A DNA stretch of 64,000 nt, taken from Quadrisphaera setariae. GTDB taxonomy: Bacteria; Actinomycetota; Actinomycetes; Actinomycetales; Quadrisphaeraceae. A program made the position numbers and the translations under genes. Positions 8,972 through 34,085 of this stretch are shown piece by piece; within the stretch, counting starts at the first letter, position 1; each line of letters starts with the position of its first letter. Under the pieces are notes generated by a model. It searched no databases. It was not told the origin of the DNA and saw nothing but the letters and a program-made list of their open reading frames with translations. Where the stretch lies: contig NZ_VKAC01000004.1 in assembly GCF_008041935.1 (NCBI RefSeq), positions 186,001-250,000 of the forward strand, written 5' to 3'.

Positions 8972-10219
8972 TCAGGACGGGGACGAGGGAGCGGTCTCGC
9001 CGGGGGGCAGCCACACCTGGCGCGCCAGCGGCACCCCCGCCTGGCGCAGCTGGTGGGCCAGCCCCACGCCGTCAGGTGCCCGCACCTCCGGCACCGCCGC
9101 CACGACCCCCGACCGCGCCGACCCCGAGACCGGCACCGGGAACACGTGCGAGAGCACCTGCTCGGCAGCCGTGAGCTGGCGGATCGCCACGGCCCGCACG
9201 TGCTGGGACTGCTCGCGGGCGAACTCGCCGTAGATCTCCGGGTCGTGCTGGCCGTCGTCACCGACGAGCAGCCACCGCACCTGCGGCAGCTCCTCGGCCA
9301 GGCGCCGCAGCGCCGCGCGCTTGTGCTCCTGCCCGCTGCGGAACCACCCGGTGTTGGTGGGGCCCCAGTCGGTGAGGAGCAGCGGACCGGCCGGGTAGCC
9401 GTGGCGCAGCATGAAGCGCGTGATGGTCGGGGCGGCGTTCCACGCACCCGTGGACAGGTAGAGCACCGGGGTGCCCTCGTGGGCCTCCGCCGCGGCCGTC
9501 AGCAGGTCGGCCATGCCCGGCACCGGGCTGCGGGCCTGCTCGTGCAGCACGAACGTGTTCCACGCGGCGATGAGGGGACGCGGCAGCGACGTGACCATGA
9601 CGGTGTCGTCGATGTCGGAGACCACGCCGTCGCGCTGGTCGGCCCCCACCACCGTGATGCGCGCCGTGGACGGCGCCCCGGTCCGCTCGTCGGCGTCCTC
9701 CTCGCCGGGCGGCGCGGTGGAGAACGTGACGTCGTGGACCCCGGGCGGCAGGTCCGAGGGGAGCCGCGCGTCGAGGTACCCGCCGCGCTCGGAGACGAGG
9801 CGGTGCGTGCGCTCCCCCACGGTCACCCAGACGGCCGTGCCCTCCACCGGCGCGGAGATGAACGCCCGCCAGCCGCGCAGCGCCGTCAGCGCCCGCTCCT
9901 TGAGCTGGTCGCGGTCGTAGGGCCCCACCCAGTCGCGCAGGGCCACCGGGTCGTAGGGCCCCTGGGGCACGGGCGTGCCCGCGTCGTCGTCGCCGTGCTC
10001 GGGTGGCCGGGTGGCCAGGACGCGACCCAGGACGCGCACCCACCCCTCCCCGCCGTAGGAGGCGTAGCCCAGCACGCGCGGCGTCCAGCCGCGGCGGCGC
10101 AGGTGCCCGGCCAGCAGCTTGTTCAGCCGGTCCTCGACCCGCGCAGCGGTGTGGCGCACGCGGGGGTGGTCGGCGGAGCGGTCTGCAGCGCGCGGGGCGC
10201 CAGGGCGTGCCGGGCTCAC
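8972..10219 (-). CDS. App1-like (DUF2183) phosphatase domain protein
   Basis: 415 residues from the GTG at 10219, which overlaps the HNH gene stop (GTGA, 10216-10219). The catalytic domain carries SDIDDTVMVT, a haloacid-dehalogenase-type DxDxT motif. Later come LYLSTGAWN, the Thr motif, HKRAALRRL with the conserved Lys, and LVGDDGQHDPEIY with the acidic pair. Yeast App1 with this domain is a Mg-dependent phosphatidate phosphatase; bacterial members are uncharacterised, so phosphatase activity is likely but substrate is open. No signal peptide is visible. A second App1-like gene lies at 29369-30481 with the same motif order. Confidence 0.87.
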   Translation of the reverse strand: MSPARPGAPRAADRSADHPRVRHTAARVEDRLNKLLAGHLRRRGWTPRVLGYASYGGEGWVRVLGRVLATRPPEHGDDDAGTPVPQGPYDPVALRDWVGPYDRDQLKERALTALRGWRAFISAPVEGTAVWVTVGERTHRLVSERGGYLDARLPSDLPPGVHDVTFSTAPPGEEDADERTGAPSTARITVVGADQRDGVVSDIDDTVMVTSLPRPLIAAWNTFVLHEQARSPVPGMADLLTAAAEAHEGTPVLYLSTGAWNAAPTITRFMLRHGYPAGPLLLTDWGPTNTGWFRSGQEHKRAALRRLAEELPQVRWLLVGDDGQHDPEIYGEFAREQSQHVRAVAIRQLTAAEQVLSHVFPVPVSGSARSGVVAAVPEVRAPDGVGLAHQLRQAGVPLARQVWLPPGETAPSSPS

Positions 10220-14068: not shown

Positions 14069-14571
14069 GTCGTGCCTCCTGGGAACGGGTGGGTCCAGCG
14101 GCCGGGTCTCGCGGTGTGTCGCGGGGCCGGCGGGTCTCGCCGGCTCCACGGTGGATCCGATGCCTGGACAGCACCTGCGCGCCAGCGCTTGTTCCCCTGT
14201 CGTCCGCGTGCCGTGCGTCTGCCGTGCGCGTCGTCTGACCGGGGAGGTGCCACCAGGTCACCCATCGTGACCGTGATCGCGGGGCCGCGCCACCTCCCAC
14301 ACCGAGATCGGTGGCACCGACAGCCCCGAGGTGGTGGACGTCACAGGCGTTCGGCACCACCCCGTCACGCAGAGTCACAGATCGTTGCGCTGGGCCTGGT
14401 CGGGTCGAGGACGACGTGCTCGCCGTCGACCGGCCGGAGGCCCGACGGCCTCCCGCGCCGGCGCCGGGCGGCGGGTCCCTGCGCGCCGGGAGCCCCGCCG
14501 CAGTGCATGCTCTCGACGAGGCGAGATCGCCGGCCTGGAGCACGGCCGGCGGGCCCGAGCAGGAGGTTCCC
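14069..14571. promoter_or_regulatory. 500-bp leader region upstream of the hydrolase-ABC operon
   Basis: No convincing gene. The plus-strand RNA of 14241-14298 can fold into a closed three-way shape: GGGAGGTG (14242-14249) with CACCTCCC (14291-14298), enclosing GGTCAC/GTGACC (14256-14272) and CGCGG/CCGCG (14278-14289). A further hairpin CACCGA/TCGGTG follows at about 14299-14313. The region must also hold the promoters of both divergent genes. I do not recognise a known riboswitch. Confidence 0.45.
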
Positions 14572-14610
14572 GTGTCCCGGGTGCACGTCCCCGTGAGTCC
14601 CACCCCGTGA
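14572..14610 (+). CDS. Putative 12-residue leader peptide coupled to hydrolase-ABC gene
   Basis: GTG at 14572 has AGGAGG 5 nt ahead and reads VSRVHVPVSPTP, then TGA at 14608. That TGA overlaps the GTG (14607) taken as the start of the large downstream gene, which itself lacks a good ribosome-binding site. The layout suggests ribosomes load on the leader and re-initiate at the overlap. It is rich in Val, Pro and Ser with no run of a regulatory amino acid. Confidence 0.4.
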   Translation: MSRVHVPVSPTP

Positions 14611-17600
14611 GGGGCGCACGCCCCTGGCGTCCCCGCCTGGTCGCCGCCGCCGCGGCGGCGCTGGTCGGTCTCGGAGCGCTCGGCGCCGCCGGGCCGGCGG
14701 CGGCCAGCTCCACCAGCCCGAGCGCCAGTCCCAGCAGCACCCCCACCGACACCCCGGTCGAGGGCGTCCGCGAGGAGCCGCTGACGGTCCCCGTGGGCCC
14801 GGAGCCGGGCGGCGCGCAGGTCACGATCGACGCGACGCTCTACGAGCCGGACGCCGCCAGCCAGGCGTCCCCTTCGCCGGCTGTGCTGCTGGCCCACGGC
14901 TTCGGCGGGTCCAAGGCCGACCTCGCAGCCCAGGGCCGCTCGCTCGCGCAGGCGGGGTACGTGGCGCTGGCCTACACCGCGCGCGGCTTCGGCGCCTCCG
15001 GCGGGAACGTCCACCTGGACGACCCCGACTACGAGGTGGCCGACGCCCGCGCCCTGGTGGACCTGCTCGCTCAGCGCCCCGAGGTCCAGCAGGACGGCCC
15101 CGGCGACCCCCGCGTCGGCGTGGCCGGCGCCTCCTACGGCGGCGCGGTGGGCCTGCTGCTCGCCGGCACCGACCCCCGGGTCGACGCGGTCGCCTCGGGA
15201 ATCACGTGGTCGGACCTGTCCTCCGCGCTCGACCCGCAGGCCGCGCAGGGGCAGTCCGGCGGCGTCTTCAAGGCGGGGTGGGCCTCGCAGCTGCTGACCA
15301 GCCTCACGGGCAGCGCGCTCGACAGCGCCCGCTCCGCCACCTCGGCGACGGCGACGGCGACGGCGAGCGGCACGAGCGGTGGTGGCACCGGCGGCGGTGC
15401 CCAGCTGGGCGTCTCCACGGCCGCGTGCGGGCGCCTGGCCCCGGACCTGTGCCGCGGCTACCTGCAGGCCGCCGAGACCGGCGTGGTGCCGGACTCGCTG
15501 CGCGCGCAGCTGGCCCGCTCGGCACCGGCGGCCGTGCTGCCGGACAGCCGCGCCGCGGTGCTGCTGGTGCAGGGCGAGGGCGACTCCCTGTTCGGCCTGG
15601 GCGACTCCCTCACCAACGCCGAGGCCGCTCAGCGCTCGGGCGCACCGGTGTCGGTGGCGTGGGTGGGGGGCGGTCACGACGGCGGCTTCGACGGCGCCGC
15701 CTTCGACGACCGCGCCCGGACCTGGTTCGACGAGCACCTGCGCGCAGGAGCGTCCGCGGGTGCCCAGACCGGGGAGCCGGCGGGGTCCGGGGAGTCGGCG
15801 GGCGACCCGACGGCGGCGTTCTCCGTGGCCGTGCCGCGGCAGAGCCTCTTCGGAGGGCGCGGCGGCGGGGGTGGTGGCGGCGGGTCGACGCCCGACGAGC
15901 GGACGCTCGACGCGGTGCCACCGCTGGCGGGGACGGCTCAGCAGATGGCCCTGTCCCCCGCAGCCCCGTCCGGGCAGCAGGGCCGGCAGGGCCAGGGCGG
16001 GCAGCAGGCCCAGCAGGGCCCGCAGCTCGTCCTGTCACCCGCCGGAGGGCGCCCCGCGGCCATGACGGCCCTGCCGGGCCTGGGCGACGTCGCCTCCCTG
16101 GTCGGGCTGGCCGCCGGCGGCGGCTTCAGCACCGCCGTGCTCCCCGGCCAGGCGGCGGTGTTCGAGACCGAGCCGCTCGAGCAGCCGCTCACACTGCTCG
16201 GGGCGTCGTCGGTGCGGCTGTCGGTGACGTCGAACACCGACGACGCCGTGCTCTTCGCGTCCCTGTCCGACGTCAGCCCGGACGGCAGCACCGCGCTGCC
16301 CTCGGGTCTGGTGGCGCCGCTGCGCGTGACCACGACGCCGGGGCAGCCGACCACCGTGGACGTCTCGCTGCCGGCCGTGGTCCGCGACGTCGCCGCCGGT
16401 CACCGGCTGCGCCTGGTGGTGGCCACCACCGACTCCGCGTACGCGGTGCCCACCGACCCGCGCGTCTACGGCGTCGGCCTCGCCGACGGCCAGCTCGCCG
16501 TGGCGGCGGCGCCCGCCGCCATCAGCGAGCCGACGGGCGACTCCGTCGACGTGCCGTGGGCGCACGTGCTCGCCCTGGCCGGCGTGGTGCTCGCGGCGCT
16601 GGCGCTGGCGCTGGTCGACGCGGCCCGCCGCCGTCGTCGTCCTGCTGCCGGCGGCGCCCACGACGGCGCGCTGGAAACGACCGGTGCTGGCCGAGGTGAC
16701 CTCGACGACGTGGTGCTCGAGGTCAGCGGCCTGGAGAAGGTCTACGGCGACGGGTTCCGCGCGGTCGACGGGGTGTCGTTCACCGTGCGCCGCGGGCAGG
16801 TGGTCGGACTGCTCGGTCCCAACGGCGCCGGCAAGACCACCACGCTGCGCATGCTCATGGGCCTGCTCCGGCCGAGCGCCGGGTCGCTGGAGGTGCTCGG
16901 GCAGCGCGTCAAGCCCGGGTCGCCGGTGCTGGCGCGAGTCGGGGCGCTCGTGGAGGGACCCGGGTTCCTGCCGCACCTGTCGGGGCTGGCGAACCTGCGG
17001 CTGTTCTGGGCGTCCACCGGGCGCCCGGCGGCCGACGCGCGCTTCGAGGAGGCCCTCGAGGTCGCCGGGCTCGGCGACGCCGTGCACCGGCGCGTGCGCG
17101 GCTACAGCCAGGGCATGCGGCAGCGGCTGGGCATCGCCCAGGCGATGCTCGGCTTCCCCGACCTGCTCGTGCTCGACGAGCCCACCAACGGCCTCGACCC
17201 GCCGCAGATCACCGCCATGCGCCAGGTGCTGCGCGACTACGCCGCCACCGGCCGCACGGTGCTCGTGTCCTCCCACCTGCTCTCGGAGGTGGAGGCCACC
17301 TGCAGCCACGCGGTGGTGATGGCGCGCGGGAGGGTGCTGGCGGCGGGGTCGGTGGCCGAGCTGGTCGCGGGGTCGGGCGAGGTGCTGGTGAGCGTGGGCG
17401 AGGGGCAGGTGGACCGGGCCGTGGAGGTGCTGCGCGAGGTGCTGGGGCGCGACGACGACGGCGGGCGCGTGCTGGGCGTCCGCGACGGCGGCGTGCTCGT
17501 CGCGCCGGGGGCGTCCGGGACGGGCGGGCTGGTGGCGGCGCTGGTCGCCTCCGGAGTGCAGGTGGACCTCGTGGTGCCGCAGCGGCACCTGGAGGAGGTC

Positions 17601-17627
17601 TTCCTCGAGCTGGTGGCCGCCCCGTGA
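14607..17627 (+). CDS. Secreted S15-type alpha/beta hydrolase fused to an ABC ATPase
   Basis: 1006 residues combining two normally separate proteins. Residues ~8-35 form a signal or anchor (LVAAAAAALVGLGALG). A Ser-rich linker leads to an alpha/beta hydrolase with nucleophile motif GASYGG, acid in QGEGDSLFG and His in GGGHDGGFDG, then Gly/Gln-rich linkers and a PepX-C-like beta-sandwich (VFETEPLEQPLTLLG). A single membrane segment (VLALAGVVLAALALAL) and a basic stop (RRRRR) precede a full ATPase: GPNGAGKTT, YSQGMRQRLGIAQAM, LLVLDEPTNGLDP, SSHLLSEVE. The hydrolase should be outside and the ATPase inside. It is coupled by GTGA overlap to the permease that follows. Start choice is uncertain (upstream frame stays open). 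Confidence 0.85.
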   Translation: MRGARPWRPRLVAAAAAALVGLGALGAAGPAAASSTSPSASPSSTPTDTPVEGVREEPLTVPVGPEPGGAQVTIDATLYEPDAASQASPSPAVLLAHGFGGSKADLAAQGRSLAQAGYVALAYTARGFGASGGNVHLDDPDYEVADARALVDLLAQRPEVQQDGPGDPRVGVAGASYGGAVGLLLAGTDPRVDAVASGITWSDLSSALDPQAAQGQSGGVFKAGWASQLLTSLTGSALDSARSATSATATATASGTSGGGTGGGAQLGVSTAACGRLAPDLCRGYLQAAETGVVPDSLRAQLARSAPAAVLPDSRAAVLLVQGEGDSLFGLGDSLTNAEAAQRSGAPVSVAWVGGGHDGGFDGAAFDDRARTWFDEHLRAGASAGAQTGEPAGSGESAGDPTAAFSVAVPRQSLFGGRGGGGGGGGSTPDERTLDAVPPLAGTAQQMALSPAAPSGQQGRQGQGGQQAQQGPQLVLSPAGGRPAAMTALPGLGDVASLVGLAAGGGFSTAVLPGQAAVFETEPLEQPLTLLGASSVRLSVTSNTDDAVLFASLSDVSPDGSTALPSGLVAPLRVTTTPGQPTTVDVSLPAVVRDVAAGHRLRLVVATTDSAYAVPTDPRVYGVGLADGQLAVAAAPAAISEPTGDSVDVPWAHVLALAGVVLAALALALVDAARRRRRPAAGGAHDGALETTGAGRGDLDDVVLEVSGLEKVYGDGFRAVDGVSFTVRRGQVVGLLGPNGAGKTTTLRMLMGLLRPSAGSLEVLGQRVKPGSPVLARVGALVEGPGFLPHLSGLANLRLFWASTGRPAADARFEEALEVAGLGDAVHRRVRGYSQGMRQRLGIAQAMLGFPDLLVLDEPTNGLDPPQITAMRQVLRDYAATGRTVLVSSHLLSEVEATCSHAVVMARGRVLAAGSVAELVAGSGEVLVSVGEGQVDRAVEVLREVLGRDDDGGRVLGVRDGGVLVAPGASGTGGLVAALVASGVQVDLVVPQRHLEEVFLELVAAP

Positions 17628-18526
17628 ACGACCCCGTGAGCGACCCCGTGAGCGGCATGAGCAGCAGCACCACCACGACGACGAGCGGGGCGGCGGGTGC
17701 GGGGTCGCGCGGCAGCGCGCTGCCGCTGCGGGTGGAGGTGGCGCGGCAGCTGTCGCGCGTGCGCACCCGCTGGGTGGGCGTGCTCGTCGTGGCGCTCCCG
17801 CTGCTGCTGGTCGCGGCGTTCGCCCTCGGCGGGGAGGACGACCCGGCCGACGGCAGCGCGTCCTTCGTGGACCTCGCCACCTCCAGCGCCGTGAACTTCG
17901 CGGTGTTCGCGCTGCTGGCCGCCTCGGGCTTCCTCTTCGTCGTCCTGGTGGCGCTCTTCGCGGGCGACACCGTGGCGGCCGAGGCCAGCTGGTCGTCCCT
18001 GCGCTACCTGCTCGCGGCGCCCGTGGGGCGGCGGCGGCTGCTCGCGGTGAAGGCGGTGGTGGCGGCGGCGTCCTCGACGCTGGGGATCGTGGCGTTCATC
18101 GCCGTCTGCCTGCTCATCGGGGTGGTCGCGTACGGCTGGGGACCGCTGACCAGCCCGCTCGGTGACGCCCTCGGCGGCTGGGAGGCGCTGGGGCGCCTCG
18201 GGTTGGCGACGGCGTACGTGGTGGTGCAGCTGTCGTGGGTGGGGGCGCTGGCGTTCTGGCTGGGCACGCGCACCGACGCGCCGCTGGGCGCCGTGGGCGG
18301 CGCGGTGCTGGCGAACATCCTCTCCGCGATCCTCGCGTCCATCACGGCCCTCGGTGACCTGCGCGCGTGGCTGCCCACGTACGACGCCGGCGCGTGGACG
18401 GCGCTGCTGCAGCCGGCGGTGGTCTGGGACGACATGGTCCGAGGGCTGGCGACGTCGCTCATCCTCACGGTGGTGTTCGGGGTGCTCGCGGTCATCGGCT
18501 TCGAGCGCAAGGACGTCACCAGCTGA
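17624..18526 (+). CDS. ABC-2 type transporter permease
   Basis: 300-residue membrane protein, partner of the fused ATPase. About six hydrophobic segments: VGVLVVALPLLLVAAFALG, then FAVFALLAASGFLFVVLVAL, STLGIVAFIAVCLLIGVVAY, AYVVVQLSWVGALAFWLG, an ANILSAILASITAL segment, and SLILTVVFGVLAVIGF. SWSSLRYLLAAPVGRRRLL is the typical ABC-2 (Nat/Bcr-like) loop. The N-terminus contains a repeated GTG-start-like stretch (GTGAACGACCCC, then GTGAGCGACCCC), so the exact start is ambiguous by up to 11 codons. Direction (export likely) is inferred from the ABC-2 class. Confidence 0.87.
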   Translation: MNDPVSDPVSGMSSSTTTTTSGAAGAGSRGSALPLRVEVARQLSRVRTRWVGVLVVALPLLLVAAFALGGEDDPADGSASFVDLATSSAVNFAVFALLAASGFLFVVLVALFAGDTVAAEASWSSLRYLLAAPVGRRRLLAVKAVVAAASSTLGIVAFIAVCLLIGVVAYGWGPLTSPLGDALGGWEALGRLGLATAYVVVQLSWVGALAFWLGTRTDAPLGAVGGAVLANILSAILASITALGDLRAWLPTYDAGAWTALLQPAVVWDDMVRGLATSLILTVVFGVLAVIGFERKDVTS

Positions 18527-18689: not shown

Positions 18690-21600
18690 GTGGCCATCGA
18701 CGAGGGACGTCGGGCGAGCACTCCGCCGCAAGGGCGGGCGCGCTCGCTGGGACAGCGCGTGACCGGGCTGTGGCCGGTGCTGCGCCAGGTGACGGGCAGC
18801 GACAAGACGGCGCACGGCGCCGCCGTGCGCACCGCGCACACCGATGCGATCACCGCCCGCACCGAGACCGCCGACCGCGTGGTCAAGAGCGTCTGCCCGT
18901 TCTGCGCGGTCGGCTGCGGCCAGGACGTCTACGTGAAGGACGAGCAGGTCGTCCAGATCGAGGGCGACCCCGACTCCCCCATCAGCCGCGGGCGCCTGTG
19001 CCCCAAGGGCAGCGCCAGCAAGAGCCTCGTCACCTCCCCCACGCGCGTCACCACGGTGCGCTACCGGCGCCCGGGCGGCACCGACTGGGAGGACCTGCCG
19101 CTGGCGACGGCCATGGACATGATCGCCGACCGCGTGCTGCAGGCCCGCCACGACGGCTGGCAGGAGCTCGACGACCGCGGCCGCAAGCTCCGCCGCACGA
19201 TGGGCTTCGCGAGCCTGGGCGGCGCGACCCTCGACAACGAAGAGAACTACCTCATGAAGAAGCTGTACACCGCCCTCGGCGCTGTGCAGATCGAGAACCA
19301 GGCCCGGATATGACACTCCTCCACGGTCCCCGGTCTGGGGACCTCGTTCGGCCGCGGAGGGGCCACCACCTTCCTCCAGGACCTCGTCAACGCTGACTGC
19401 ATCCTCATCCAGGGCAGCAACATGGCCGAGGCGCACCCGGTGGGCTTCCAGTGGGTGATGGAGGCCAAGCGCCGCGGGGCGAAGGTCATCCACGTCGACC
19501 CGCGGTTCACGCGGACCTCGGCCGTGGCCGACCTGCACGTGCCGCTGCGCGCGGGCACGGACATCGCCTTCCTCGGCGGGCTGGTCAACCACGTGCTCGC
19601 CAACGACGCGTACTTCCACGACTACGTGGTGGCGTACACCAACGCCGCCTCGATCGTCGGCGAGGAGTACCGCGACACCGAGGACCCCGAGGAGGACGGC
19701 CCGTCCACCGACCCGACCGGCCTGTTCTCCGGCTGGGACGAGGACAGCCGCAGCTACGACCCGTCGACCTGGGCCTACCAGGACGCGAAGGACGTCGCGG
19801 CCGCCGGTGACCGCAGCCCGAGCGGTCGCAGCAGCGGCGGCACCCAGGGCGGGGAGACCCACAAGGCCACCGCTGGTGGGGACGCCTACGGCAGCGGCGG
19901 CGCCACCATCGGCTCCAAGCCCGACCGCGACGAGACGCTGCAGCACCCGCGCACGGTGTTCCAGATCCTCAAGCGGCACTTCGCCCGCTACACCCCGGAG
20001 ATGGTGGAGCGGATCTGCGGCACCCCGCAGGACGCCTTCCTGCAGGTCGCCCGGGCGCTGGTGGAGAACTCCGGCCGCGAGCGCACCACGGCGCTGGCGT
20101 ACGCGGTGGGCTGGACGCACCACTCCCAGGGCGCGCAGTACATCCGCACGTCGGCGATCCTGCAGACGCTGCTGGGCAACATCGGCCGCCCCGGCGGCGG
20201 GATCCTCGCGCTGCGCGGGCACGCCAGCATCCAGGGCTCCACCGACATCCCCACGCTGTTCAACCTGTGGTCGGGCTACCTGCCCATGCCGAAGGCGGGC
20301 CAGGACGACGTCGACTCCTACGTCGGCTCCTCCGAGGACCTCGCCGGGTTCTGGGGCAACATGCGCGACTACAGCGTCAGCCTGCTGAAGTCGTGGTGGG
20401 GTGACGCGGCCCAGCCCGAGAACGACTTCGCGTTCGACTACATGCCGCGCATCTCCGGCGACCACGGCACGTACCGCACGGTCATGGACATGGTCGACGG
20501 GAAGGTCGACGGGTACTTCCTGCTGGGGCAGAACCCCGCGGTCGGCTCGGCGAACGCCCGGCTGCAGCGCCTGGGCATGGCCAACCTCAAGTGGCTCGTG
20601 GTCCGCGACCTGCAGATGATCGAGTCGGCCACGTTCTGGAAGGACGGGCCGGAGGTCGAGACCGGCGAGCTGCGCACCGAGGACGTCGGCACCGAGGTGT
20701 TCTTCCTCCCCGCGGCCAGCCACGTGGAGAAGGCCGGCACGTTCACCCAGACGCAGCGGCTGCTGCAGTGGCGCCACCAGGCGGTGTCCCCGCCGGGCGA
20801 GTCGCGCAGCGAGCTGTGGTTCTACTGGCAGCTCGGGCGCATCCTGCGGGAGAAGCTCGCCGCGTCCACCGACCCGCGCGACAGGCCGCTGCTCGACCTG
20901 ACCTGGGACTACCCCGTCCACGAGGACGAGTTCGGCCCCGCGTCGGACCCGCTGAGCTGGGAGCCCGACGGCGAGGCGGTGCTGCGCGAGATCAGCGGCA
21001 CCGAGACCCACCTCGACGACGACGGCACCGTGGTCGACCGGGCGCTGTCGTCCTACACGGAGCTCAAGTCCGACGGGACCACGCGCTCGGGCTGCTGGAT
21101 CTACTGCGGCGCGTACGCGGACGAGGTCAACCAGACCGCTCGGCGTCGTCCCGGTCGTGAGCAGGACTGGACGGCCGCGGAGTGGGGCTGGGCCTGGCCG
21201 ATGAACCGCCGCCAGCTGTACAACCGCGCCTCGGCGGACCCGCAGGGCAGGCCCTGGAGCGAGCGCAAGGCGCTCGTCTGGTGGGACGAGACGGCCGGCG
21301 AGGACGGGAAGGGCCGCTGGGTGGGGCACGACGTGCCCGACTTCGAGGCCACCAAGCCGCCGTCGTACGTGCCGCCGGCCGGCTCGAGGGGTCCGGCGGC
21401 CATCGCCGGCCGCGACCCGTTCATCATGCAGGCGGACGGCAAGGCGTGGCTGTTCGCGCCGTCCGGAGTGGTCGACGGTCCGCTGCCCACCCACTACGAG
21501 GGCGCGGAGTCGCCCGTGGGCAACCCGCTGCACCCGAACCGGGTCTACAACCCGGCCCGCCGGGCGTTCCCCCGGCCGGGCAACCGCGGGGTGCCGACGC

Positions 21601-22163
21601 GCTCGGACGTCTACCCGTTCGTGTTCACCACCTACCGGCTCACCGAGCACCACACGGCGGGCGGCATGAGCCGCACGCTGCCGTACCTGTCGGAGCTGCA
21701 GCCGGAGATGTTCATCGAGGTCTCCGCGGAGCTGGCGCGCGAGCGCGGGCTGGAGCACCAGGGGTGGGCGACCATCGTCACGCCGCGCAGCGCCATCGAG
21801 GCGCGCGTCATGGTCACGCCGCGCATCCGCCCGCTGCGGCTGCCCGGAGGCGGCGAGGACGGCAGCGAGGTGCAGGTGGTGCACCAGGTGGGCATCCCGT
21901 GGCACTGGGGGCCGAACGGCATCAGCCGCGGTGACGCCGCCAACGAGCTGGTGGAGATCCTCCTGGACCCGAACACGCACATCCAGGACAAGGTCGGGGC
22001 GTGCGACGTCGTCCCCGGACGGCGTCCGCGCGGGCCCGCGCTCGTGGAGTTCGTGGCGCAGCGCCGCGCCGCGGCCGGGCTGCCGACCGACGACGACGTC
22101 CCCTCCCTCCGCGGCGGAGCCGAGCTCGACGCGGAACCGAACGACGGGCGGAACACCCCATGA
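18690..22163 (+). CDS. fdnG: Selenocysteine formate dehydrogenase, catalytic subunit
   Basis: Oxidises formate to CO2 at a Mo/W-bis-MGD centre. It must be read as one 1157-residue protein through the in-frame TGA at 19311-19313 (Sec208): the frame resumes directly and the flanks (ENQARI before, HSSTVPGLGTSFGRGG after) match FDH-N/O at the Sec site. Cys69, 72, 76 and 104 bind a 4Fe-4S cluster (CPFCAVGC, then RLCPKG). A Gly/Ser-rich insert lies at about residues 371-413. The C-terminal domain has the molybdopterin-binding pattern HHTAGGMSR and WHWGPNGISRGDAANE. No twin-arginine signal precedes the cluster, unlike E. coli FdnG. GTG start 18690; ATGA overlap with the next gene. Confidence 0.94.
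19311..19343 (+). promoter_or_regulatory. Selenocysteine UGA codon and bacterial SECIS hairpin
   Basis: UGA at 19311-19313 is followed by a perfect 7-bp stem, GGTCCCC (19325-19331) with GGGGACC (19337-19343), closing the loop GGTCT (19332-19336). Exactly 18 nt separate the UGA from the loop, the same as in E. coli fdhF as I recall it, and the loop matches the GGUCU recognised by SelB there. It lies inside the coding sequence, as bacterial SECIS elements do. Confidence 0.93.
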
Positions 22164-25141: not shown

Positions 25142-26209
25142 TCAGCGGACGACGACGACGGCCCCGTCCGCCCGGCGCGGCACCAGCTCCCCCACCAGCG
25201 CCGAGCCGGGCAGGGCCGCGGTGAGGTCGGCCGCCACGAGCAGGCCTCCGGAGGTCTGCGCGTCGGCGAGCAGCAGCAGCTCGTCCTCGTCGACCCCGGG
25301 ACCGGTGGACAGGTGCGGCCGCACCCACGCGAGGTTGCGCCGCGACCCGCCGGGCACGTACCCCTGAGCCATCGACGAGCGCACGCCGCCGAGGTAGGGG
25401 ACGGCCGCCGCGTCGACCACCGCCGTCACCCCGGACGCCCGCGCCAGCTTGTACAGGTGGCCCAGCAGACCGAAGCCCGTGACGTCAGTGGCGGCGCGCG
25501 CACCGACGGCCAGCGCCGCACGGGAGGCGTCGCGGTTGAGGGTGGCCATCACCGCGACCGCTTCCTCGAACACCTCCCCCGTCGCCTTGTGGCGGTTGTT
25601 GAGCACCCCGAGGCCCAGCGGCTTGGTCAGCGTCAGCGCCAGCCCGGCCTCGCCGGCGTCGTTGCGCAGCAGGTGCGCCGGGTCGGCCAGGCCGGTCACG
25701 GCCATGCCGTACTTCGGCTCGGGGTCGTCCACCGAGTGGCCGCCGGCCACGAAGCAGCCCGCGGCGCGCGCTGCGTCGAGCCCCCCGCGCAGCACCTCAG
25801 CGGCCAGCTCCACCGGCAGCGGTGCCTCGCCCGTGCGCGGCCAGCACAGGAGGTTCAGCGCCACCAGCGGGTCGGCGCCCATCGCGTACACGTCGGACAG
25901 GGCGTTGGTGGCGGCGATGCGGCCCCAGTCGTAGGCGTCGTCGACCACGGGCGTGAAGAAGTCGGTGGTCGACACCACGGCCTTCCCGCCGGCCGCCTCC
26001 GAGGGCAGGACGACGACGGCCGCGTCGTCGCCGTCGTCGAGGCCCACGAGGAGCTCCGCGCCGGCCACGGCGGGTGCGCCGGGCTGCCGGCCGACGAGCC
26101 CCGCGACGGCGGCCTCCAGCTCACCGGGCGGGATCTTGCAGGCGCATCCCCCGCCGTGCGCGTAGCTCGTCAGCCTGCGGGTCGTCGGCGTGGTGCCGGT
26201 GGTGCTCAT
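25142..26209 (-). CDS. selD: Selenophosphate synthase
   Basis: Makes selenophosphate, the selenium donor for Sec-tRNA, from selenide and ATP. 355 residues, usual SelD length. The N-terminal active-site loop is HGGGCACKIPP with Cys22 and Lys25; this protein has Cys where some SelD proteins carry Sec, so it does not depend on itself. Other features: DDAAVV metal/ATP motif, TTDFFTPVVDD, TNALSDVYAMGADP, GGHSVDDPEPKYG and TDVTGFGLLGH. ATG 26209 is divergent from selC, whose tRNA starts 76 bp away, so a shared control region is likely. Confidence 0.95.
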   Translation of the reverse strand: MSTTGTTPTTRRLTSYAHGGGCACKIPPGELEAAVAGLVGRQPGAPAVAGAELLVGLDDGDDAAVVVLPSEAAGGKAVVSTTDFFTPVVDDAYDWGRIAATNALSDVYAMGADPLVALNLLCWPRTGEAPLPVELAAEVLRGGLDAARAAGCFVAGGHSVDDPEPKYGMAVTGLADPAHLLRNDAGEAGLALTLTKPLGLGVLNNRHKATGEVFEEAVAVMATLNRDASRAALAVGARAATDVTGFGLLGHLYKLARASGVTAVVDAAAVPYLGGVRSSMAQGYVPGGSRRNLAWVRPHLSTGPGVDEDELLLLADAQTSGGLLVAADLTAALPGSALVGELVPRRADGAVVVVR

Positions 26210-26285: not shown

Positions 26286-26378
26286 GGAGGCGTCTGCTCA
26301 CCTGGTGGGAGTCGCGGCCTTCAAAGCCGACGAGACCGAGCACCTCGGTCTGGCGGGTTCGATCCCCGTCCGCCTCCG
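26286..26378 (+). tRNA. selC: tRNA-Sec (anticodon TCA)
   Basis: 93-nt tRNA. Acceptor GGAGGCG (26286-26292) pairs with CGCCTCC (26371-26377), discriminator G at 26378, no encoded CCA. Anticodon loop CTTCAAA sits between CGGC and GCCG. The long variable arm is a perfect 8-bp stem, AGACCGAG (26333-26340) with CTCGGTCT (26344-26351), loop CAC. T loop TTCGATC. Acceptor plus T stem give 13 pairs, best drawn here as 7+6 because the eighth acceptor pair would be T-C. It is divergent from selD and upstream of a GPP34 gene. Confidence 0.95.
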
Positions 26379-26391
26379 CTAGCGTCGTGGT

Positions 26392-29368: not shown

Positions 29369-30481
29369 GTGAGCGGACCCGGAGACCGGCCCCTGCCCGA
29401 GCCCTCCGAGCCGGGCGCGGCGCTCGACCCGCTCCCGACCTCCCGCCTCGGGGCTGCCCTCTTCCGCTTCGGCCGGGCGCGCCGCGACGTCCTCGCCACC
29501 GTCCTGCAGCAGCGCGGCTGGAGCTGCGCCGTGCTGCCCTACCCGGGGTACGGCACGGGCGGGCGGGTCAGGGTGCTCGCTCGCGTCGTCCTGGCCCCGC
29601 CGGGCCGCGAGCCGAGCGCGGTCCGGGGCGTCGCGGCCTGGCGGCGGCTGCTGACGCTGCAGCGCTCCCGGGTCGTCGTGGACGTCTCCGGTGACGGCCT
29701 GGACGGGGTGCACCGGGTCCGCAGCGGTCCAGGGGGCTTCATCGACGAGGTGCTGCCGTGGAGCGCGGAGCCCGGTCCGCACCGCGTGAGCTTCCGGGTC
29801 GGGGACCGACCTGCGGTGGAGTCCGTGGTGCACGTCGCCGACCCGGGCGCGCGCACGGGCGTCGTCTGCGACATCGACGACACCACGCTGGTGACCGGTC
29901 TGCGCCACCCCGTCCGCGCCGCGTGGCAGACCATGACCCGGGCGTTCGCCCAGCGGGTCCCCGTGGAGGGCATGGCCGACCTCCTCACCGCTGCACACGC
30001 CCAGCACGGCAGCCAGGACAGCCCGGTCGTCTACCTCAGCACGGGCCCGTGGAACTTCAACGGGCCGCTGGCCCGCTTCCTCGACCGCTGCGGGTTCCCC
30101 GCCGGTCCCCTGCTCCAGACCCAGTGGAGCCCCACCACCCAGGGGTTCTTCCGCGACGGCCGCGCCCACAAGCGGCGCAGCCTGCAGCGGCTGCGGGCGG
30201 ACTTCCCCGACGTCCGCTGGCTCCTGGTGGGGGACGACGGCGAGCACGACCCGGCGATCTACGCGGACTTCGCCCGCGAGCACCCGCAGCACGTCCTGGC
30301 CGTCGCGCTGCGCCAGGTCGGTGCCAGCGCCCGTGGGGGGACCGGCGCTCAGGGGGCCGTCGGTGCGGTGCCGGTGGTGGCGGCGCCCGACGGACACCTC
30401 CTCGGCCAGCGCCTCAGCGCCGCGCTCTCGCCGGGTGCTGCCACCGCCCGTGAGGAGGGGCGCTCCGGAGGCGCCGCCTGA
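29369..30481 (+). CDS. App1-like (DUF2183) phosphatase domain protein, second copy
   Basis: 370 residues with the same motif order as the gene at 8972-10219: CDIDDTTLVTG (DxDxT), VVYLSTGPWNFNG, HKRRSLQRL and LLVGDDGEHDPAIY. An N-terminal domain of ~130 residues precedes it (PYPGYGTGGRVRVLARVVL), also shared with the first copy. Probable Mg-dependent phosphatase of the HAD group with unknown substrate. GTG 29369. It lies 22 bp upstream of selA on the same strand and may be co-transcribed with selAB, though no functional link to selenium is known. Confidence 0.85.
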   Translation: MSGPGDRPLPEPSEPGAALDPLPTSRLGAALFRFGRARRDVLATVLQQRGWSCAVLPYPGYGTGGRVRVLARVVLAPPGREPSAVRGVAAWRRLLTLQRSRVVVDVSGDGLDGVHRVRSGPGGFIDEVLPWSAEPGPHRVSFRVGDRPAVESVVHVADPGARTGVVCDIDDTTLVTGLRHPVRAAWQTMTRAFAQRVPVEGMADLLTAAHAQHGSQDSPVVYLSTGPWNFNGPLARFLDRCGFPAGPLLQTQWSPTTQGFFRDGRAHKRRSLQRLRADFPDVRWLLVGDDGEHDPAIYADFAREHPQHVLAVALRQVGASARGGTGAQGAVGAVPVVAAPDGHLLGQRLSAALSPGAATAREEGRSGGAA

Positions 30482-30503: not shown

Positions 30504-32099
<1,596 letters not shown>

Positions 32100-34085
32100 G
32101 TGCACGTCGTCGCCACCGCCGGGCACGTCGACCACGGCAAGTCCGCCCTGCTGCGGGCGCTGACCGGCACCGACCCCGACCGCCTCGCCGAGGAGCAGCG
32201 GCGCGGCATGACCACCGACCTCGGCTTCGTGCACACCCGCGTGAGCGTCGCCGGCGACGGTGACAGCGACGGCTGCGAAGACGTGGCGTTCGTCGACGTC
32301 CCCGGTCACGAGCGGTTCGTGCCGACCATGCTCGCCGGCGTCGGCCAGGTGACGGCCGTGCTGCTCGTCGTGGCCGCTGACGGAGGGTGGATGCCGCAGA
32401 CCACCGAGCACCTCGATGCCCTGGCCGCCCTCGGCGTGCGCCGGGGCCTGCTGGTGGTCTCCCGCGCCGACCTCGCCGACCGCACCCAGCGCGACCAGGT
32501 CCTCGCCCGCGCCACCACCGAGCTCGAGGGCACCGGCCTGGAGGACCTCGTGCGCGTCGAGGCCAGCGCCGTCACCGGCGAGGGGCTGCCCCAGCTGCGC
32601 GACGCCCTCTCCCGCGTGCTGGCCGGCGCCCCGCGGCCCGACCCCGACAGCCCCGTGCGCCTGTGGGTGGACCGCAGCTTCACCGTCCGCGGCGCGGGCA
32701 CGGTGGTCACAGGCACCCTGGCGGCCGGCACGGTGACGGCCGGCGACGAGCTCGTGCTGCCGGACGGCACCGCCGTCGTCGTCCGCGGTCTGCAGAGCCT
32801 CGACGCGCCGGTCGCGGCGGCCACCGGCCCGGCGCGCGTGGCGCTCAACCTGCGCGGAGTGGCCCCGGCGGCTGTCCGACGCGGCACCGCGCTGGGCGCC
32901 CCCGGCACCACCACGACGACGACGAGCGCCGACGTCCGCCTGCTGCCCGTCCCCGGCCGCACCGCCGCTCGCGGCGATGGTCGTGGTGGTGGTCGTGGCC
33001 GCGGGCTCGGCGGGGAAGACCGCTGGCCCGAGCACCTCGTGCTGCACCTCGGGACGGCGGCGGTGCCCGTGCGGGTTCGCCCCCTCGGCCCGGCGGGCAG
33101 CGGGCCCGACGGTGATCGCGTCGGGCAGCACGGCGGTCATGTGCGCCTGTCGCTGGCCACCGCGCTGCCGCTGCGCGCGGGAGACCGCGCACTGGTCCGC
33201 GACCCGGGCGGCCACCGGGTGCTGGCCGCCGCGCTCGTGCTGGACCCTGCTCCCCCGCCGCTGGCGCGGCGCGGCTCAGCCCGCGAGCGCGCGGGCGTGC
33301 TGGTGGCCGTGTCCGAGGAGGCGGTGCTGCGCGGGGACCCCGCCGGCGAGCTGGAGCGCCGCGGTCAGACCACCCGCTCCGCGCTGCGCGCCCTGGGGCT
33401 GCGCGCCGCCGAGGTGGAGGCGCTGGCAGCGGTGGCCGGGGTGCTCGCCGACGGGGACCACCTCCTGTCGCCCGTGCTCGCCGGCGCCCTGCGCGGTCGG
33501 CTGCCCGGCGAGCTGGCGGCGCACCGGCGAGAGCACCCTCTGGAGCCGGGCCCGCCGGTGGAGGTGGTGAGGCGCCGGCTCGGACTCGCCTCACCGGGGC
33601 TCGTGGCAGCGCTCGTCGGCTCCTGGTCCGCGGGTGGCTCTCCGGTGGCGGTGCGCGACGGGCGCCTCGTCGACGCGACGGCGCCGGCGGGAGCGGCGCT
33701 GCCGCCCGCCGTGCAGCGGGCGGTGGCCGCGGTGCTCGGCGACCTGGAGCGCGCCCCGTACGGCGCTCCGGAGGCGCACCGGCTGCGCGAGCTCGGGCTG
33801 GGTCCCCGGGAGCTGGCGGCGGCCGTGCGCTCGGGCGAGCTGGAGCGCGTGGCCGAGGGCCTCTACCTGACCGCCGGCGCCGCGCTCGCGGCGCCCGCGG
33901 TGCTGGCAGAGCGGCTGGAGGACCCCTCGGCCGCGTTCACGGCCAGCGAGGCGCGGCGGGCCCTGGACACCACGCGCCGCGTCGTCGTCCCGCTCCTGGA
34001 GCTGCTGGACCGCCGCGGCGCCACCCGACGCCTGCCCGACGGCACCCGCGTGCTGCTCCGTGCGGGTGGTGCGGCCGACGCCTGA
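32100..34085 (+). CDS. selB: Selenocysteine-specific elongation factor
   Basis: Delivers Sec-tRNA-Sec to the ribosome at a UGA followed by a SECIS hairpin. 661 residues. GTPase motifs: GHVDHGKS (8-15), EEQRRGMTTDLGF (switch I, typical of SelB), DVPGHE (66-71) and SRAD in the NKxD position. EF-Tu-like domains 2-3 follow (GAGTVVTGTLAAGTV), then a linker rich in Gly/Arg at about residues 285-310 and C-terminal winged helices that bind the SECIS loop (ERRGQTTRSALRALGL region and later). Its target in this window is the fdnG SECIS at 19325-19343. Confidence 0.95.
   Translation: MHVVATAGHVDHGKSALLRALTGTDPDRLAEEQRRGMTTDLGFVHTRVSVAGDGDSDGCEDVAFVDVPGHERFVPTMLAGVGQVTAVLLVVAADGGWMPQTTEHLDALAALGVRRGLLVVSRADLADRTQRDQVLARATTELEGTGLEDLVRVEASAVTGEGLPQLRDALSRVLAGAPRPDPDSPVRLWVDRSFTVRGAGTVVTGTLAAGTVTAGDELVLPDGTAVVVRGLQSLDAPVAAATGPARVALNLRGVAPAAVRRGTALGAPGTTTTTTSADVRLLPVPGRTAARGDGRGGGRGRGLGGEDRWPEHLVLHLGTAAVPVRVRPLGPAGSGPDGDRVGQHGGHVRLSLATALPLRAGDRALVRDPGGHRVLAAALVLDPAPPPLARRGSARERAGVLVAVSEEAVLRGDPAGELERRGQTTRSALRALGLRAAEVEALAAVAGVLADGDHLLSPVLAGALRGRLPGELAAHRREHPLEPGPPVEVVRRRLGLASPGLVAALVGSWSAGGSPVAVRDGRLVDATAPAGAALPPAVQRAVAAVLGDLERAPYGAPEAHRLRELGLGPRELAAAVRSGELERVAEGLYLTAGAALAAPAVLAERLEDPSAAFTASEARRALDTTRRVVVPLLELLDRRGATRRLPDGTRVLLRAGGAADA

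Follow-up and report, generated by a model that had tools for sequence, protein, structure and literature searches.

A gene of Quadrisphaera setariae joins, in one polypeptide of 1006 aa, an alpha/beta hydrolase predicted to lie outside the membrane and an ATP-binding cassette (ABC) ATPase predicted to lie inside it, and the analysis confirms that this fusion is real and general. The stretch analysed, here called the window, comprises 64,000 nt of contig NZ_VKAC01000004.1, and all coordinates count from window position 1. The fusion gene runs from 14607 to 17627 on the plus strand, as do all its features below, and is supported by its open frame, Pfam matches and a whole-protein model. Its product contains, in order, a signal peptide or anchor, the alpha/beta hydrolase, a PepX_C jelly roll, a single membrane helix, the ABC ATPase and a C-terminal extension; in particular, Pfam identifies Peptidase_S15 at residues 72-233 (E = 3e-13), PepX_C at 454-618 (2e-21) and ABC_tran at 721-861 (6e-30). 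An earlier note on the window had described one polypeptide with these two halves, a PepX-C-like domain, a complete ATPase, one membrane helix between hydrolase and ATPase and an ABC-2 permease next door, and had expected the architecture in other actinobacteria. The open frame, Pfam and recurrence uphold the first of these statements; the others hold as well on the evidence below, the helix and its orientation as predictions. The note had also named a sequencing error or missed stop between about 16620 and 16700 as what would split the fusion into two genes. The frame is uninterrupted from a GTG at 14607 up to the stop at 17625-17627, the third-position G+C signal follows a single frame across 16620-16700 and shifts frame only at the permease, and independent genomes carry the same frame.

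The fusion recurs in many actinobacterial genera and, patchily, in several classes of the phylum. When public genomes were scanned, 40 loci emerged, the first 28 of which (L022-L049, actinobacterial records) are all fusions, while the remaining 12 match one half only; the genera include Quadrisphaera, Nocardioides, Micromonospora, Amycolatopsis, Actinokineospora, Arsenicicoccus, Asanoa, Actinosynnema, Humibacillus, Nakamurella and others. Whole-genome searches used the hydrolase half as the query, with the window's own genome included in the counts. At the family level, 11 of 13 genomes are positive and all are fused; at the order level (E <= 1e-10), 26 of 149 genomes are positive, 21 fused and 5 unfused. 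The class-level search (E <= 1e-20) found 35 of 118 genomes, 5 of which had no locus to read, and its 29 new loci comprise 19 fused, 9 unfused and 1 left unresolved (L119); two genomes counted here as unfused (G204 and G170) each carry the fusion at another place. At the phylum level (E <= 1e-20), 32 of 198 genomes are positive, with 23 new loci, 8 of them fused (all outside the class) and 15 not. Further, the fusion is present in genomes of only 1.3-1.4 Mb, one of which (G174) has 42 ABC_tran matches in 1.3 Mb. Its occurrence is nevertheless patchy, since only 12 of 61 genomes in that small-genome family carry it (E <= 1e-60), as do 2 of 5 in one small-genome genus. The sole annotated fusion record inspected, from Tsukamurella, calls the fusion an 'alpha/beta fold hydrolase' and the next gene an 'ABC transporter permease'.

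The half predicted to lie outside begins with a putative signal peptide or N-terminal anchor (14607 to 14708), recognised from a hydrophobic stretch at residues 11-29, after which an AAASS-like cleavage site can be discerned by eye, and from a helix at residues 9-24 modelled at low confidence. The alpha/beta hydrolase domain (residues 53-385; 14763 to 15761) is supported by Pfam S15 and Hydrolase_4 matches, the model, a fold match and an invariant catalytic triad of Ser176 (15132-15134), Asp326 (15582-15584) and His357 (15675-15677). It is followed by the PepX_C-type beta jelly roll (core residues 511-632; 16137 to 16502), where the Pfam match begins at residue 454 and the models are mostly beta. 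A model of the ectodomain alone, built from 34 sequences of which three are stand-alone relatives, has a mean predicted local distance difference test (pLDDT) score of 85.6 and a predicted template modelling (pTM) score of 0.87. Foldseek places the lipase PaL first (8yzn, E = 7e-32, template modelling score 0.76 on the target), then cocaine esterase (CocE), alpha-amino acid ester hydrolase and X-prolyl dipeptidyl peptidase (PepX), with 11-21% identity in the alignments to these four. A profile search also ranks PaL first (3e-36), followed by several single-domain alpha/beta hydrolases, an MHETase and PET46 among them, and then cocaine esterase (about 1e-10). Moreover, in the printed alignment, read by eye, the family's Ser, Asp and His fall on the Ser-Tyr-Gly, Asp-Ser-Leu-Phe and His positions of PaL.

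Pfam scores above cut-off for both S15 and PepX_C, the triad and the fold match place the protein within the S15/CocE-type peptidase family. It lies outside the narrower group of X-prolyl dipeptidyl peptidases: PaL and CocE outrank PepX, and the model lacks a large N-terminal helical domain such as PepX carries. The S15 label that the hydrolase had first been given thus holds for the family, but its peptidase sense is too specific. Since PaL and CocE rank ahead by fold, and PaL by profile too, esterase or lipase chemistry is likelier than prolyl peptidase activity, and kinship to these two enzymes favours small acylated molecules with ester or amide bonds as the substrate.

Both halves are under purifying selection. 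The triad is unchanged in three sets of fusions. The first comprises 45 of 45 fusions, obtained from 50 locus ids after 5 without a gene longer than 850 aa had been excluded (some loci stand under two ids), and the second is a selected set of 33. The third consists of 28 (the window and 27 others, eight from outside the class); its frames were selected on the motif surrounding Ser176 and on the Walker A motif, a selection that all 27 loci passed. A cysteine pair, Cys274 and Cys282, is invariant in the 45- and 33-fusion sets, and each cysteine is present in 26 of 28 sequences of the third. In the ATPase, Walker A, signature, Walker B and H-loop are invariant in 33 of 33 fusions, which establishes it as a complete ABC ATPase; the third set keeps the Walker A lysine in 28 of 28 and the later ATPase residues in 16 of 16, the other 12 loci ending earlier. 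Ratios of nonsynonymous to synonymous substitution (dN/dS), from four within-genus comparisons, are 0.18-0.41 for the hydrolase, 0.10-0.39 for PepX_C, 0.07-0.15 for the ATPase and 0.09-0.41 for its extension, as against 0.41-0.90 for stalk, helix and linker together and 0.75-1.43 for the N-terminus. To judge from their sequences, the hydrolase outside and the ATPase inside both look active.

The two halves are connected by a predicted membrane helix (residues 651-675; 16557 to 16631) with an Arg-rich inner flank, supported by hydropathy, charge bias and a helix in the model. A hydrophobic segment above a fixed threshold occupies the gap between PepX_C and ATPase in all 33 aligned fusions, most weakly in L090 and L039, and net charge averages about -0.9 immediately outside the helix and +3.2 immediately inside it. 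This bias fits a hydrolase outside and an ATPase inside, a topology that is strongly predicted. Between jelly roll and membrane lies a short stalk of 15-28 residues; on the inner side, the linker has a median length of 18 residues, with 16-34 in 31 of 33 fusions and 65 and 104 in the other two. A whole-protein AlphaFold model (31 sequences, mean pLDDT 79.4, pTM 0.62) resolves the helix at 9-24, the ectodomain at 54-632, the helix at 651-675, the ATPase from 702 and the C-terminal extension.

The ATPase, or nucleotide-binding domain (residues 702-922; 16710 to 17372), is identified by its ABC_tran match and by its motifs, namely Walker A (GPNGAGKT, 16815-16838), the signature YSQGM, Walker B with DEP, and the H-loop. 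Its C-terminal extension (residues 923-1006; 17373 to 17624) rests on the model, the length of the NosF alignment and the DrrA profile. Foldseek gives NosF as the best match to ATPase plus extension, over 305-315 columns, about the length of both; the ATPase is 32-34% identical to NosF and 36% to the ABC ATPase TM0544, and its top sequence matches in the Protein Data Bank (PDB) are ABCA lipid transporters. The NCBIfam model drrA (TIGR01188) aligns with residues 711-1002 at 181.8 bits against a cut-off of 312.45, which leaves the protein outside that family. The adjacent gene (17624 to 18526; 300 aa) encodes an ABC-2 permease with about six or seven hydrophobic segments by hydropathy (Pfam ABC2_membrane_2, PF12679, E = 8e-11; 42.1 bits against a cut-off of 27.2), and its start overlaps the fusion's stop by 4 bases (GTGA). 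The only solved match to the permease profile is NosY, at a non-significant E of 0.1. In all the loci fetched with long flanks (29 of 29, 10 of 10 and 17 of 17), the next gene on the fusion's strand is the permease, and the 4-base overlap recurs in 21 of the 29, with starts taken from a simple gene caller.

The trees favour a single old fusion event. Fused proteins form one side of one branch in both the hydrolase tree (60 fused, 11 stand-alone; Shimodaira-Hasegawa-like approximate likelihood ratio test, SH-aLRT, 97) and the ATPase tree (59 fused, 17 unfused; SH-aLRT 99). Only matches spanning at least 400 residues of the hydrolase, or at least about 170 of the ATPase, were admitted. Because these are quick trees, and most of the unfused ATPases belong to the genome that holds the window and sit on long branches, we go no further than favouring a single origin. 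Five weaker hydrolase loci in the order (28-40% identity) have neither an ATPase part nor an adjacent permease of this family; near one of them, L086, a different ABC gene lies on the opposite strand. An ATPase-less hydrolase relative in Segniliparus rugosus (L051, 6046-7685) is read as two overlapping frames, which may be either a really split gene or a frame error. The record named Streptomyces sp. NP160 (L025) groups with Quadrisphaera in both trees and has several neighbour genes in common with the window, so its organism name is probably wrong.

What the pair does can be proposed tentatively, and the reading we prefer, though with some hesitation, is an ABC-2 machine whose permease exports a small capped molecule that the attached surface hydrolase cleaves at the exit. 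ABC machines contain two ATPases and two permeases, and for that reason fusion and permease would most likely form a heterotetramer of the type (fusion)2(permease)2. In each fusion protein an esterase- or lipase-like serine hydrolase would stand outside the membrane, and one helix would tether it to the ATPase driving the permease. What the permease exports, or flips outward, would be a small molecule, acylated or capped with an ester or amide, which the hydrolase would cleave on its exit so as to trap, activate or release it. Both the direction of transport and the coupling of cleavage to it are inferred; export followed by cleavage is the simplest reading given an active-looking hydrolase, an ATPase and an ABC-2 permease. 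Two papers describe a precedent, the ZmaM/PamJ/EdeA type, in which an extracytoplasmic prodrug peptidase is fused to ABC-transporter parts (PMC9889268, PMC4234257).

Three observations weigh against this proposal. The processing or release of a cargo on its way out, raised in the earlier note, remains a reasonable inference, but no cargo gene, biosynthetic cluster or regulator common across families was found beside the pair in 29 loci. The stalk, helix and linker form the least constrained region except for the N-terminus (dN/dS 0.41-0.90), and a junction so loosely conserved is more compatible with a tether than with a finely tuned coupling element or rigid lever, though not decisively so. 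Further, the patchy distribution makes a universal housekeeping cargo unlikely. A core housekeeping role for the fusion, which its presence in 1.3 Mb genomes had suggested, was dropped on the 12-of-61 count in that family.

The same junction bears on the main alternative, a somewhat unlikely one, inside-out control, in which the ATPase cycle moves no cargo and instead acts through permease and helix on the surface hydrolase, altering its position or activity. Comparable behaviour is described for MacB mechanotransmission (PMC10094684) and for the control of peptidoglycan hydrolases by FtsEX (PMC11627006, PMC10694151). The short stalk and the inner linker with its median of 18 residues would suit such transmission, while linkers of 65 and 104 residues and the loose conservation of the junction would make a poor rigid rod. 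NosDFY acts on its periplasmic partner NosD, and NosF is the best Foldseek match to ATPase plus extension, with NosY the sole solved match of the permease, though not a significant one; the identity to NosF is no higher than that to TM0544, and ABC-2 permeases generally export or flip substrates.

Unlikely as well is a role in handling envelope lipids or glycolipids, whereby the permease would move an acylated envelope component and the lipase-like domain would deacylate that component or a neighbour in the outer leaflet. The closest relative of the hydrolase by both fold and profile is the lipase PaL, ABCA lipid transporters head the ATPase's PDB sequence matches, and the fusion is present in genomes of 1.3-1.4 Mb; in one of these, none of the six scanned neighbours is a secondary-metabolite gene. 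The ABCA similarity is, on general grounds, generic for this class of ATPase, and patchiness among close relatives, such as the 2 of 5 genomes in the small-genome genus, argues against a core envelope function. To the same limited degree one may entertain an ATP-driven surface enzyme that is not primarily an exporter, in which the ABC-2 motor feeds substrate into, or mechanically gates, the covalently attached esterase; if true, the hydrolase would be a built-in moving part of an ABC machine across several classes of Actinomycetota.

Distinctly improbable is that the tether serves localisation only, anchoring the hydrolase to the membrane beside an independent transporter that exports something unrelated. 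The loosely conserved stalk, helix and linker would permit this, as would the model, whose halves are separate folds joined through low-confidence segments; the tether is nonetheless attached to an ATPase and not to any other anchor, and no unfused hydrolase stands beside this permease family in the examined loci, many of which have a flank of about 1.5 kb only. Finally, a frameshift or missed stop merging two genes has next to no likelihood, because the fusion recurs in the identical continuous frame across many independent genomes and the codon-position signal is consistent with one frame.

The neighbourhood beyond the pair is variable. Across the 29 loci, only fusion and permease are present in all, and no other gene occurs in more than 15. 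A divergent S9 (prolyl oligopeptidase-type) peptidase gene occurs in 15 of 29 loci, comprising 14 Pseudonocardiaceae and one Nakamurella (for example L028, 2558-4513, and L048, 1610-3610, with 13 further loci); it is directly divergent beside the fusion in Nakamurella, with about 50% identity, and separated from it by a TerC gene in Pseudonocardiaceae where the order was tested. Shared ancestry and functional partnership are candidate readings of this proximity. The TerC gene is itself found in 15 of 29 loci, all Pseudonocardiaceae, and in 4 loci from three families, genes resembling membrane transporters (30-36% identical, assigned by eye) form a loose cluster kilobases away. Pfam was run on 40 neighbour proteins from the window and eight other loci, most neighbours of the other loci remaining unscanned, and no nonribosomal peptide synthetase (NRPS) or polyketide synthase cluster appeared among those 40. 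Neighbours include serA-like and formate dehydrogenase genes in the window, a nitrate-sensing kinase in Micromonospora, a von Willebrand factor A protein in the large-genome family f37, and arginase, decarboxylase and DUF305 genes in a small genome. Anti-phage defence was considered and rejected: the best stretches of all PADLOC matches lie in the ATPase region, with none for the permease.

Other features of the window stand apart from the pair. A molybdopterin enzyme (Pfam on 19422-22160) resembles formate dehydrogenase and has an in-frame TGA at 19311-19313, in a context that we take to be typical of selenocysteine formate dehydrogenases. Near it are a tRNA-Sec gene, an AIRS-family (SelD-like) gene, SelA and SelB, a complete-looking selenocysteine (Sec) set; the Sec-related spans are 18690-22163, 25142-26209, 26286-26379 and 30504-34085. 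Two genes, at 8972-10159 and 29369-30481, carry an APP1 phosphatidate phosphatase catalytic domain.

The precise start codon of the fusion gene is uncertain. A 12-codon frame at 14572-14610, with a good ribosome site, overlaps the fusion's GTG at 14607 and is possibly a leader or the true start region; no such frame was seen in the printed upstream stretches of related loci. A short block like GCAGGGCATGCTCTCGAC at about 14500-14530 recurs, by eye, 5′ of the fusion in L022, L025, L011 and L023, all within the genus; it is a possible promoter or operator. A separate ATPase product from an internal start was also considered and rejected: a linker start with a Shine-Dalgarno-like site occurs in 4 of 33 loci, compared to 6% of equal-sized control windows, and no conserved internal start for a stand-alone ATPase was found among the 33 loci.

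Among the matches listed in a literature search of open-licence papers, titles and the opening lines of abstracts mention no S15/CocE-ABC fusion and describe no function for one; several known systems share parts of it. CocE, PaL, alpha-amino acid ester hydrolase and X-prolyl dipeptidyl peptidase align over the ectodomain and have the alpha/beta hydrolase and jelly roll in common with the fusion but, unlike it, no ABC part. DrrAB-type exporters share the two-gene layout of ATPase and permease and the sub-threshold drrA match at 711-1002, whereas DrrA is not known to carry a hydrolase. NosDFY resembles the present system in that its ABC ATPase has a C-terminal extension, which the modelled one aligns with, and in its separate permease and extracytoplasmic partner; NosD, however, is encoded apart and is not known to be a hydrolase, and the similarity of the permeases is not significant (NosY E = 0.1). 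FtsEX has a permease of a different class, and its hydrolase is not known to be covalently attached. FtsEX with its RipC/EnvC-type partners is likewise reported to combine an ABC machine with an extracytoplasmic hydrolase, which FtsEX controls.

A further parallel in design is with the type II prodrug-activating peptidases ZmaM, PamJ and EdeA (PF00144), which also hold an extracytoplasmic serine hydrolase and ABC parts in one polypeptide (PMC9889268, PMC4234257). Their peptidase is of the beta-lactamase superfamily, followed in PamJ by nine membrane helices and then the ABC domain, and ZmaM-type proteins sit in NRPS clusters. The present fusion differs in having a CocE/PaL-like hydrolase with PepX_C, one membrane helix, a separate ABC-2 permease and no recurring NRPS cluster, and it lies outside the ZmaM type, as its fold is that of an alpha/beta hydrolase and PF00144 is not among the ten Pfam families listed for it. 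If the hydrolase acts on the exported molecule, its substrate chemistry would offer a direct handle on the transporter's cargo. Extracytoplasmic enzymes tied to ABC transporters were already known in a few forms, such as the ZmaM-type prodrug peptidases and the partners of FtsEX, and the fusion with its permease is another, structurally independent design, built on one tether helix and a two-gene layout.

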